Shown here: in pieces, positions 4,929-9,619 of the stretch | Layout of the letters: each line of letters begins with the position of its first letter | How positions within the stretch are numbered: the stretch's first letter is position 1 | Assembly (NCBI GenBank): GCA_001790855.1 | Contig: MGDH01000002.1 | Coordinates: forward strand, 1-12,217 | Origin: Candidatus Schekmanbacteria bacterium RIFCSPLOWO2_02_FULL_38_14 | GTDB lineage: Bacteria > Schekmanbacteria > GWA2-38-11 | Length of the DNA stretch: 12,217 nucleotides | Reading direction: 5' to 3' | Program-made: the position numbers and the translations under genes | The notes under the pieces: generated by a model | Database searches by the model: none | Told to the model about the DNA's origin: nothing | The model's input: only the letters and a program-made list of their open reading frames with translations

Positions 4929-5000
4929 TGAAATCTTATCTTTTTATATTATATAATATTTATTCTTTGCAACCTTAAAATACTTCAAAATTCATTTGAC
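4929..5000 (+). repeat. Direct repeat copy A (upstream of fluoride operon promoter)
   Basis: This stretch matches 6877-6951 along its whole length with small indels. Both run from TGAAAT through a TATATTATA-TAATATTT tract and TTTGCAAYCTTAAAATACTT (4966-4985 here, differing at one base) to the TTGAC of a -35 box. The shared, very AT-rich block could act as an UP element or hold a common regulator site. Confidence 0.8.
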
Positions 5001-5024
5001 TTCTATTTATACTTTTTTTATATT
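4996..5024 (+). promoter_or_regulatory. Sigma-70-type promoter of the fluoride operon
   Basis: TTGACT (4996-5001) and TATATT (5019-5024) are separated by 17 bases. Transcription would start at about 5030-5032, exactly at the 5' edge of the riboswitch aptamer. AT-rich DNA lies immediately upstream. Confidence 0.8.
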
Positions 5025-5030
5025 TAAAAA

Positions 5031-5080
5031 AGGCGATGGGGTTCGCCATTAAGCATCCATAAGGGATTAATGACCCCTAC
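5031..5080 (+). promoter_or_regulatory. Fluoride riboswitch (crcB motif) aptamer
   Basis: The conserved opening GGCGATGGGGTTCGCC (5032-5047) forms a stem of GGCG with CGCC around an eight-base loop. A second short stem pairs ATCC (5055-5058) with GGAT (5064-5067). The conserved TAATGACCCCTACTG segment follows from 5068. GGGG in the first loop (5038-5041) can pair with CCCC (5074-5077), the pseudoknot known from the fluoride aptamer structure. Fluoride binding in this class stabilises the pseudoknot and prevents the terminator that reuses the same CCCC, so expression turns on when fluoride rises. The call is by recognition of the consensus; an Infernal hit to the Rfam fluoride riboswitch model would settle it. 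Confidence 0.93.
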
Positions 5081-5116
5081 TGAAAAATATAAATTTCGGT
5101 AGGGGTTTTTATTTTT
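5073..5116 (+). terminator. Riboswitch-controlled intrinsic terminator
   Basis: ACCCCTAC (5073-5080) pairs perfectly with GTAGGGGT (5099-5106). The stem continues through a T-G wobble and GAAA (5082-5085) with TTTC (5094-5097) to an eight-base AT loop. The tract TTTTTATTTTT (5106-5116) follows. The 5' arm contains the CCCC needed for the aptamer pseudoknot, so aptamer folding and termination are mutually exclusive, the standard expression-platform design for an on-switch. Confidence 0.92.
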
Positions 5117-5158
5117 AATCACCTGCCGGAGTTGAGAAAAAGAGAGGATAAAAATAAA

Positions 5159-6295
5159 ATGGAAAACCAATGGATTCAGGCAGCGCTATGGATGGGACTT
5201 GCTTTCGGCGCAACACTTCTATCCTTAAGGATAGCAATATCAATTGCTCTTCTTGAAATTATGGTTGGTGTATTGGGAGGGAGTTTTCTTCCGCTTCAGA
5301 GAACAGAATGGGTGAACTTCCTTGCAGGGTTTGGTAGTATACTCCTCACATTTCTTGCCGGTGCTGAGGTTGATCCCGTTGTACTGAAGAAAAGGTTTAA
5401 AGAAAGTATGGCTATAGGGATATTATCATTTCTTGCACCATTTCTTGGAGTGATTGCATATGCTTATTATATTGCCGGATGGGGACTTGCTCAGGCTCAG
5501 ATAGCAGGCATTTCACTTTCAACGACATCTGTTGCCGTAGTCTATGCCGTGATGATTGAGACAGGTTATAACGAAACAGAGCTTGGGAAACTTATACTCG
5601 CAGCCTGTTTCATAACTGATCTTGGAACTGTCCTTGCACTTGGCATTCTCTTTGCAAATTATGACCGGTATATGATTTTGTTCATTATAGTTACTGTAAT
5701 TATACTTTTGTTACTTCCTAAGTTTACACCATGGTTTTTCAAAAAGGTCGGGAGCCGTGTGAGTGAACCTGAAACAAAGTTTATATTCTTTTTGCTCTTT
5801 GGGCTTGGAGGTATTTCTATGATGGCAAAGAGTGAGGCGGTGCTTCCAGCATATCTTGTGGGAATGGTGCTTGCGCCTTTTTTTCTTGAGAATAAGACAT
5901 TGAGTCACAGGATGCGTGTTACTGCATTTACAATGCTGACGCCATTCTATTTTATCAAGGCAGGTTCACTTGTCAAACTATCTGCAATGTGGAACAGTGC
6001 AAATTTAATTTTTATATTTCTTCTGATAAAGATGGGAACAAAATTTACAGGTGTGTGGCCCCCAACCAAGATATTCAGCTTTGGTAAAAAGGAAGGGATG
6101 TATACAACTTTACTGATGTCAACAGGTCTTACATTTGATACAATTTCAGCCCTTTTTGGACTAACTAATAAGATTATAAATCGGGAGCAGTATACAATCC
6201 TTGTCACTGCTGTTATACTTTCAGCAGTAGTGCCAACTTTAATTGCACAAAAATGGTTCAAACCTGAGCTTAAGAAGGAGACTAATGATGTTTAA
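5159..6295 (+). CDS. Cation:proton antiporter (CPA / Na_H_Exchanger family), fluoride-riboswitch controlled
   Basis: Encodes 378 aa, almost entirely hydrophobic with about 11-13 membrane segments, the size and pattern of a minimal CPA-family exchanger without a C-terminal TrkA-N domain. Family signatures are FLAGAEVDP at the end of an early helix, ISLSTTSVAVVYA (S121-T122-T123-S124, the unwound-helix region) and AACFITDLGTVLALG, where the ion-binding pair is T153-D154 instead of the N-D or D-D of well-studied members. The acidic residue itself is kept, so proton exchange should be possible. The substrate cation cannot be assigned. ATG 5159 is preferred, with GAGAGG (5142-5147) 11 bases upstream; TTG 5132 would add nine charged residues before the first helix. 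The 5' leader carries the riboswitch, and usp overlaps the 3' end by 8 bases, so both should be induced by fluoride. Antiporters are among the gene classes reported downstream of crcB-motif RNAs. Confidence 0.92.
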   Translation: MENQWIQAALWMGLAFGATLLSLRIAISIALLEIMVGVLGGSFLPLQRTEWVNFLAGFGSILLTFLAGAEVDPVVLKKRFKESMAIGILSFLAPFLGVIAYAYYIAGWGLAQAQIAGISLSTTSVAVVYAVMIETGYNETELGKLILAACFITDLGTVLALGILFANYDRYMILFIIVTVIILLLLPKFTPWFFKKVGSRVSEPETKFIFFLLFGLGGISMMAKSEAVLPAYLVGMVLAPFFLENKTLSHRMRVTAFTMLTPFYFIKAGSLVKLSAMWNSANLIFIFLLIKMGTKFTGVWPPTKIFSFGKKEGMYTTLLMSTGLTFDTISALFGLTNKIINREQYTILVTAVILSAVVPTLIAQKWFKPELKKETNDV

Positions 6296-6710
6296 GAAAA
6301 TATTAATTGCCAATGATGGTTCTGACGGTGCAAAGCATGCACTTCAGGTTGCCATTGACCTTTCAAAAAAATATAATGCAGATCTCCATAGTATCTCAGT
6401 TGAAGAGGGAGTACCGCACTATGCTGCGACTATTGGAGAGGTAGAAGAGTTTAAGCAGGAAGCAAACAATTATTTTAGAAAGGTCAATGAAGAAGCCGTT
6501 GAGATGGCAAAAAAAGAAGGTGTCAAGCTTCACACAAAGGTTCTGCCGGGTCATGAAGTAGAGACGGTTATTAATTATGCTAAAGATGGAAAATTCGATC
6601 TTCTTGTGATTGGCTTTATGGGCCATTCAAAAATCTTTGGAAGAGTATGGGGTTCAACTTCCCAGAACATAACAAAGCTTTCTCCCTGCACAGTGATTGT
6701 TGTGAAATAA
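6288..6710 (+). CDS. Universal stress protein (UspA family), ATP-binding type
   Basis: Encodes 140 aa, the standard single-domain Usp length. It begins MFKKILIANDGSDGAKHA, with the adenine-pocket aspartate D10, and ends VIVVK as is typical of the last beta strand. The nucleotide motif G-2x-G-9x-G-S is exact: G109, G112, G122, S123, so it should bind ATP rather than belong to the non-binding UspA subgroup. ATG 6288 overlaps the antiporter by 8 bases and has AAGGAG (6275-6280) 7 bases upstream; ATG 6285 is also possible but closer to the site. The overlap implies coupled translation and common control by the fluoride riboswitch. A regulatory role on the antiporter or a general stress role are both open. 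Usp genes are listed among known crcB-motif targets. Confidence 0.94.
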   Translation: MFKKILIANDGSDGAKHALQVAIDLSKKYNADLHSISVEEGVPHYAATIGEVEEFKQEANNYFRKVNEEAVEMAKKEGVKLHTKVLPGHEVETVINYAKDGKFDLLVIGFMGHSKIFGRVWGSTSQNITKLSPCTVIVVK

Positions 6711-6740
6711 TTCGAAACGGCGATGGAATTTGCTTGCTCA

Positions 6741-6845
6741 TCATGGAAAGATATCATTAATGTGTTGATAGACAAGATTTGAGAAAACATATCTCGCAAT
6801 TGCTCCAAGAGAGCCGCCAAGAGCTATAAATAGAATCTGTAGCAT
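6741..6845 (-). pseudogene. crcB: N-terminal remnant of crcB/fluC (fluoride channel)
   Basis: The minus strand from ATG 6845 reads MLQILFIALGGSLGAIARYV then FSNLVYQHINDIFP and stops at TGA 6743-6741. The ALGGSLGAIARY block is the N-terminal signature of CrcB/Fluc fluoride channels, and FP normally precedes the GT-x-x-VN segment of the second helix. Here two stops (TGA TGA) follow FP directly and no CrcB sequence continues in any frame I checked. Intact proteins are about 120-130 aa, so some three quarters is gone. AGGT lies about 7 bases before the ATG, so the start region looks undamaged and the loss could be recent. The fragment is convergent with usp and lies 31 bases past its stop. A 34-residue membrane peptide could still be made, but no function is suggested. 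Confidence 0.8.
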
Positions 6846-7036: not shown

Positions 7037-9619
7037 ATGATTGGAACACTTTTAAGGAAAGTAATAGGAAGCAAGAACGACAGGGATTTAAAGGCAATAC
7101 AACCCATTGTTGAAAGAATCAACAGCCTTGAACCTGAAATAAGAAAACTTTCTGATGTCAAACTCATGGCAAAGACCAGCGAGTTCAAAGAAAGAACCGG
7201 GAAAGGCGAGAGCCTTGATGATATTTTATGTGAATCTTTTGCAGTAGTGCGTGAAGCCTCGCGCAGGGTGCTTGGGATGAGACATTTTGATGTTCAGCTT
7301 ATCGGGGGAATGATACTTCATCAGGGAAAAATCGCTGAAATGAAAACAGGAGAGGGCAAGACCCTTGTTGCAACGCTTTCTGTTTATCTCAATGCGCTTA
7401 CAGGGAAAGGTGTCCATGTAGTTACAGTTAATGATTACCTTGCAAGAAGAGACAGTGAATGGATGGGAGGAATATATAAATTCCTTGGGCTTTCAGTAGG
7501 CCTTATCCAGCATGATATGTATGATGAGAAGAGAAAGGAATCATATAACAGCGACATTACATACGGGACAAATAATGAGTTCGGGTTTGATTATTTGAGA
7601 GACAACATGAAATTCAGAATTGAGGATTACTGCCAGAGGGAACTCAACTATGCCATTGTTGATGAGGTTGACAGCATATTGGTTGATGAGGCAAGGACAC
7701 CGCTCATAATTTCAGGGCCTACAGAGGAATCAACTGACAAGTATTATATCATCAATAAGCTTGTTCCAAGGCTGAAGGTTGAAACTGATTATAAAATAGA
7801 TGAAAAGGCAAGGACAGTCTCCCTGAGTGAAGATGGCGTTGCAAAGGCAGAGAAGTTTTTAAATATTGACAATCTTTATGACCCTAAAAACATTGAGCTG
7901 ATTCATCACGTCCATCAGGCTCTGAAGGCTTATACGCTGTTTAAAAGAGATGTGGATTATGTCGTGAATGAAGGGGAGGTAGTTATCGTTGATGAATTCA
8001 CAGGAAGATTGATGCCGGGAAGACGTTACAGCGAAGGGCTTCATCAGGCACTTGAGGCAAAAGAGAATGTAAAAATTGCCAATGAAAACCAGACCCTTGC
8101 CACAATTACTTTTCAGAATTATTTCAGAATGTACAAAAAACTTGCAGGAATGACAGGCACTGCAGACACTGAGGCGGAGGAGTTTCATAAAATCTATAAA
8201 CTTGAGGTTGCTGTAATCCCGGCAAACAAGCCTTTAAACAGAAAAGAGCACCCGGATATAATTTACAGAACTGTTCAGGAAAAGTTCAAGGCAGTGGTCA
8301 CTGAGATTGAGGATTATTACAGGAGAGAGCAGCCTGTCCTTGTTGGAACAATTTCAATTGAGAAATCCGAGCTTCTGAGCAGCATACTGAAGAAAAAGGG
8401 AATTTCCCACAATGTTCTCAATGCCAAGTACCACGAAAAAGAAGCTGAGATAGTAGCTCAGGCAGGAAGAAAGGGAAATATAACGATTGCCACAAACATG
8501 GCTGGAAGAGGAACAGACATCGTGCTTGGAGGAGTTGACCCTGAGACAAAAGAGAAAGACCCTGAGAGAGAAGCAGATGTGGTAAAGCTTGGAGGGCTTC
8601 ATATCCTTGGTACTGAGAGACACGAGAGCAGGCGTATTGATAATCAGTTAAGAGGAAGGTCAGGAAGGCAGGGAGACCCGGGTTCCTCAAGATTCTATCT
8701 CTCGATGGAAGACGACCTGCTGCGGATTTTTGGAATGGAAAAGACTTCAAACCTAATGAAAAGAATAGGGATGGAAGAGGACCAGCCAATAGAGCATCCG
8801 TGGGTTTCAAAATCCATTGAGCGGGCACAGAAGAATGTGGAAGCACATAACTTCAGCATAAGGAAACAGCTTCTTGAATATGATGATGTTATGAACAAGC
8901 AGAGAGAGGTTATTTACGAGCAGAGAAGAATGGTGCTTGAAAGCGAAAACCTTGAGGATGCTGTTTCAGATATGATTGATGATATAGTAGAAGGGATTTA
9001 TAATACTTACGAGGGTGAAGAGGATTTAGAGACACAGAAAAAAGAAATTGAGGATGCTATATACAGGCAGTTCAGGACAGACAGGGATGACAGCGGAATA
9101 AATTTTGAAGGGCTTGAGAAAGAAGAGCAGGTGCAGAAGGTGTCAGGATTTTTAAAAGAGATTTACGGGAAGAAAAGAGAGGAGAGAAGGGAAAAGATTG
9201 GCGAGCGGGCAGATAACATAGAGAGAATGGTTATGCTTCAGGTAATTGACAATCTCTGGAAAGACAATCTCCTTGCAATGGACCACCTCAAGGAAGGGAT
9301 AGGCCTGAGGGGATACGGGCAAAGGGACCCGCTTGTTGAATACAAGAGAGAAGGATATGAGATGTTTCAGAATATGATTGAGAGGATAAAGGAAGAGACA
9401 GTTGACCATCTCTTTAAGATTGAACTTGTAAGCGACCAGGAAATTTATGAGAGTTCTCAGAGGAGGTTGAAGGATATTTCAATGAACAGGGGAGAAGGGG
9501 AAGAGAAGAAAAAACCTTCAAAGAGAGAAAGCGGAAAGGTAGGAAGGAATGACCCGTGCCCGTGCGGAAGCGGAAAGAAATACAAAAAATGCTGCGGAAT
9601 GATTGGGGCAACAGCTTAA
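7037..9619 (+). CDS. secA: Preprotein translocase ATPase SecA
   Basis: Encodes 860 aa, a full-length SecA that drives preproteins through SecYEG. Walker A is MKTGEGKT with K108 and T109, Walker B/DEAD-like [14 protein letters not shown] starts at D209, and the second motor domain carries the [12 protein letters not shown] and [13 protein letters not shown] motifs. The helical scaffold and wing domains are intact. The C-terminal SEC-C tail [16 protein letters not shown] has zinc ligands C841, C843, C852 and C853, which bind SecB or the ribosome in species that have been studied. ATG 7037 is chosen: AGG (7028-7030) lies 6 bases upstream and [16 protein letters not shown] is a normal SecA N-terminus, whereas the frame upstream to 6944 runs through the promoter. 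The gene appears monocistronic, followed by short direct repeats and a hairpin. Confidence 0.99.

Follow-up and report, generated by a model that had tools for sequence, protein, structure and literature searches.

A fluoride riboswitch operon beside a truncated crcB gene

The window analysed here is an entire contig of 12,217 bp (C2) from a Schekmanbacteria MAG (G000; 2.68 Mb in 43 contigs, 99.4% complete). It carries a fluoride riboswitch followed by the genes of a cation:proton antiporter and a universal stress protein, below referred to as the cassette, and behind them, on the opposite strand, the start of crcB/fluC, the gene of a fluoride channel:

4996..5024, + strand: promoter-like TTGACT-17-TATATT of the cassette (consensus match only)
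5023..5086, + strand: fluoride riboswitch aptamer RS1 (RF01734; 50.3 bits, E 1.1e-11)
5072..5107, + strand: intrinsic terminator, 14 bp, overlapping the 3' end of the RS1 aptamer (z -4.9)
5159..6295, + strand: CPA2-type cation:proton antiporter, 378 aa, NapA fold (PF00999, E 1.3e-38; longest ORF starts at 5132)
6288..6710, + strand: universal stress protein (Usp), 140 aa (PF00582, E 1.3e-24)
6715..6735, + strand: RS2 relic, the 5' end of a second fluoride riboswitch (motif match and position in relatives)
6736..6744, no strand: junction at which truncated RS2 meets truncated crcB, source of the tandem stop codons (sequence)
6741..6845, - strand: crcB/fluC pseudogene, codons 1-34 (TM1) plus stop (Pfam, NCBIfam and own-HMM matches)
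7037..9619, + strand: secA (ORF from 6944, likely ATG at 7037; recognised by sequence)

The secA gene is the divergent neighbour of the crcB stump and lies outside the cassette. Near the contig end (11632-12173, - strand) is a pair of a RelE-like toxin and an AbrB-like antitoxin, recognised by sequence only.

With 50.3 bits at a gathering cut-off of 34, and with an expression platform, RS1 is a member of RF01734, and the overlap of terminator and aptamer is as would be expected of a transcription-ON switch. DNA homology to both cassettes of the nearest genome, Candidatus Schekmanbacteria bacterium GWA2_38_11 (G001, same family), begins at 4991-4993. The cassette is the sole fluoride-riboswitch-controlled operon recognised in the genome: a second riboswitch candidate (C18, 22.8 bits) was weak, had no recognised fluoride gene adjoining it and was set aside. 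The antiporter has a dN/dS of about 0.07 (usp: dN 0.077, dS 0.755), indicating that the cassette is alive and under purifying selection; the original prediction of a live antiporter under a fluoride riboswitch thus agrees with the data.

The antiporter can be assigned to CPA2 by its PF00999 domain, its NapA-type fold and its TM5 aspartate; its TIGR00932 score is under the curated cut-off of that model. The best match of the predicted structure (pLDDT 85) is NapA, found in the PDB by sequence and by fold (4bwz, 5bz2; TM-score 0.71-0.80). Both proteins have the TM5 aspartate (D154 in the antiporter) and an equivalent lysine (K295, K305 in NapA), but NapA D156 is replaced by T153 (N in many distant members), and position 267, an invariant K/R, is M in NapA. 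Unlike KefC, the antiporter has no regulatory domain. One fewer negative and one more positive charge would, speculatively, suit an anion.

The crcB stump and its junction with a second riboswitch

The stump ORF (6845..6741, - strand) reads MLQILFIALGGSLGAIARYVFSNLVYQHINDIFP, followed by TGA TGA. Its residues 1-34 align gaplessly to the N-terminus and TM1 of CrcB/Fluc proteins (PF02537, TIGR00494), including the GGxxGAxxRY signature, and fifteen NCBIfam models match it, every one of them CrcB (best E 1.1e-5). The match to Pfam CRCB (PF02537) covers about profile positions 1-24 of 103 with an E-value of 0.0049, short of the curated cut-off, which a fragment would not be expected to reach. With a CrcB HMM built in this analysis, the stump reached 28.9 bits, compared with 9.0 for the top of 5000 shuffles of the same peptide and less than 4 bits for the next-best open frame of the window. 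The CrcB N-terminal peptide proposed for the minus strand is therefore borne out, also by the profile searches on which the proposal had been staked. The start codon said to be intact is present (ATG); the ribosome binding site, said to be intact as well, is plausible but weak, consisting of a short AGG about 6 nt upstream.

The reading frame stops immediately ahead of W-G-T, a conserved motif in front of TM2, consistent with the claim that the tandem stops stand where the second helix should begin, and everything from this motif onward is missing. Fluc channels require four helices and TM3 phenylalanines. The stump has the N-terminal signature and TM1 and lacks the set of four helices with the TM2 Asn and the TM3 Phe region of functional CrcB/Fluc proteins; without the sequence from W-G-T on, it cannot form a channel. 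No frame between the stump and the usp stop codon contains further crcB, indicating loss of sequence rather than a point nonsense mutation. The stump was also the sole match of a whole-genome search with PF02537 (E<=10), and a search with PF00654 found no CLC in the genome; both searches give matches in most control genomes. The crcB gene is dead at this locus, and the suspected loss of the channel extends to the entire assembly, in which no intact or split crcB and no CLC were found.

A second fluoride riboswitch, RS2, begins in the 30 bases from the usp stop codon to the stump, where its first ~20 nt are still present. The bases directly after usp, GAAACGGCGATGGAATTTGCTT, are the 5' end of the RS2 aptamer; GGCGATGGAATTTGC at 6719-6733 differs from the RS2 core by 2 mismatches (0.01 expected in the window), and GGCGATGGAGTTCGC, with <=2 mismatches, matches the window only at RS1 and after usp (0.01 expected). 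Four Nitrospirota loci with the same cassette (L053, L055, L056, L062) have RS2 starting 0-2 nt past the usp stop codon, and the alignment of the relic to RS2 of L055 beats 20,000/20,000 shuffles. RF01734 gives no match at the relic at E<=10, let alone a full aptamer above the gathering cut-off, because only the 5' core is left and this is too short, hence the term relic. A stretch of about 10 bp, at about 6736-6744, holds both breaks: truncated RS2 abuts truncated crcB there, which argues for a recombination or deletion junction and for the suggestion that a rearrangement cut crcB. Repeats that would explain the break were not found at this junction. The sequence GAATTTGC is shared after usp by the window and contig C134 of G001, which is suggestive only: shuffles reach the overall score.

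Relatives of the cassette and the distribution of CrcB

The crcB gene of G001 is truncated too, with a CrcB match to about residue 71 that is followed by a palindromic repeat, and is convergent to one of the two G001 cassette copies, beyond HAD and MFS genes. At the crcB break (L047 4845-4975) there are a palindromic repeat of the GTAGGGACAGCCC...GGGCT.TCCCTAC type and a second short repeat. As this break (about codon 71) differs from the one in the window (codon 34), the losses look independent, and crcB appears to have decayed twice in this Schekmanbacteria family; dN/dS on the 33 crcB codons shared by the window and G001 is saturated. In both cassette-bearing family members, crcB is broken and near a cassette; the order-mates G002 and G003, in which crcB is complete, gave neither an antiporter match nor a fluoride riboswitch. 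The antiporter is single-copy in G000, and the cassette of G001 is present in more than one copy. On contig C157 of G001 (L047 5228-6970), the antiporter-Usp cassette is followed by genes for a HAD-like phosphatase and an MFS transporter, which are also found near it in Nitrospirota loci; the MFS protein is a further transporter candidate of the fluoride module.

Identity of the window antiporter is 89-91% to the G001 copies and 77-85% to Nitrospirota homologues, and a fluoride riboswitch is located just upstream in all close antiporter homologues. In the antiporter tree, the three Schekmanbacteria copies form a group (99/98) that falls within a clade shared with Nitrospirota (100/98), and the window copy is closest to the one on C134 of G001, which adjoins enolase.

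In Nitrospirota, RS2 behind usp leads into a gene for a GTPase of the dynamin family (L053 1883-3637, L055 9690-11456, L056 9687-11441, L058 2611-4359; PF00350, E 4.8e-29; product about 584 aa), and a dynamin-like GTPase also comes after RS2 in L062. Several Nitrospirota genomes share this unusual target of a fluoride riboswitch; in a search run without positive control, the GTPase was not found in either Schekmanbacteria genome (G000, G001). More distant relatives of the antiporter (about 52% identity) are encoded on enterobacterial plasmids: homologues are on 38 plasmid records, many of them conjugative and mostly from Enterobacteriaceae, and the one Escherichia coli plasmid that was inspected (L131 4816-9965) has the order riboswitch-antiporter-Usp-MutS-MutS. 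No pattern match to the antiporter was found in viral contigs. The cassette resembles the crcB-motif super-regulon of Baker/Breaker (Na+/H+ antiporter, Usp, enolase, MutS) in having RF01734 upstream of antiporter and Usp, and enolase, HAD and MFS genes are present in relatives of the window cassette. It differs from the GI3 operon of Enterobacter cloacae FRM (PMC5533749), which has an intact crcB and no antiporter, whereas in the window crcB is a scar and the genome has no crcB or CLC left.

In the order to which one Nitrospirota carrier belongs, 67 of 149 genomes have CrcB and 82 do not, most of the latter without a close antiporter too. CrcB is absent from all nine genomes with a close antiporter (0/9, against 67/140 of the others; Fisher p 0.004, a statistic that ignores phylogeny and MAG gaps), and eight of these nine were tested for CLC, with no match in any (8/8). 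A distant antiporter type (44-54% identity) is present in 22 genomes of the order, and 8/22 have crcB. In these eight (G090, G101, G116, G130, G135, G139, G144, G192), an intact crcB lies on the same contig and strand as the antiporter, within 1.7 kb (8/8). The antiporter family can therefore be a companion of CrcB and not a substitute. In G048, a CrcB match near a fluoride riboswitch (L029/L031, C37:10439-10773) is split: one piece covers positions 2-58 and the other, in another frame and overlapping the first, 58-102, reflecting either a frameshift or a two-part gene.

Loss and possible replacement of the channel

The best explanation as a whole (probability roughly 0.7) is that the stump is a pseudogene scar: a family ancestor with an ordinary, riboswitch-free crcB would have gained the cassette (promoter, riboswitch, CPA2 antiporter, Usp and second riboswitch), probably in an exchange involving Nitrospirota. 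RS2, about 20 nt in, would then have been fused to crcB codon 34/35 by a deletion or recombination, with the remainder of both lost and the tandem stop codons supplied by the junction. Fluoride is expected to turn on the surviving cassette via antitermination, and antiporter and Usp most likely made the channel dispensable, either by restoring the cytoplasmic pH once HF has entered or by removing fluoride from the cell. Replacement of the channel, the history suggested originally, is well supported because of the independent truncation in G001, the intact crcB without cassette in G002 and G003 and the anticorrelation of CrcB and antiporter in Nitrospirota. We infer the order of events, the fluoride induction and the functional takeover; that the window antiporter groups with the C134 copy, and not with the crcB-adjoining copy of G001, makes the proposed order tentative, and takeover of the channel's role by the antiporter is plausible. 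In Pseudomonas putida, another transporter contributes to tolerance without CrcB (PMC13104614), and Enterobacter cloacae FRM still grew at high fluoride when crcB and uspA were deleted (PMC5533749).

Alternatively, crcB may have decayed passively, with habitat fluoride low or CrcB dispensable and the adjoining cassette incidental and serving pH homeostasis only. This is possible, if somewhat doubtful: CrcB is missing from about half of the sampled genomes and the literature assigns fluoride-riboswitch-linked Na+/H+ antiporters to pH homeostasis (PMC11139923), but the strong purifying selection on a fluoride-responsive cassette argues that fluoride is met, and crcB is broken near the cassette in both carriers and whole in both non-carriers, albeit with two genomes in each group. 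A misassembly, in which a cassette copy and a crcB locus that are each whole in the real chromosome were spliced into one contig, is improbable. The MAG is in 43 contigs and a cassette with several copies, as in G001, invites chimeras; however, G000 has a single antiporter copy, the missing 3' part of crcB would be expected somewhere in so complete an assembly, G001 lost crcB independently, and the RS2 core is degenerate, as expected of an old relic. That the 34-aa peptide is still made with a job of its own, for instance as a single-helix membrane peptide, is highly improbable: the ATG, the weak AGG and a frame without frameshift in 34 codons are kept, but an intact frame may simply reflect a recent event, a Fluc channel cannot be built from one helix, and the end of the peptide is set by the junction, with a different length retained in G001.

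Taken one step further, replacement of the channel would mean that the riboswitch-controlled CPA2 antiporter itself exports fluoride and adds a third class to the bacterial exporters Fluc and CLC-F, and that crcB became dispensable when this antiporter arrived, in Schekmanbacteria at least twice and in Nitrospirota as well; this extension is tentative and rather unlikely. The locus is a readable scar of resistance-gene turnover, with a dead fluoride channel and a clipped riboswitch at one breakpoint, and together with its relatives it makes testable whether fluoride export can be replaced by Na+/H+-type antiporters that fluoride riboswitches control.
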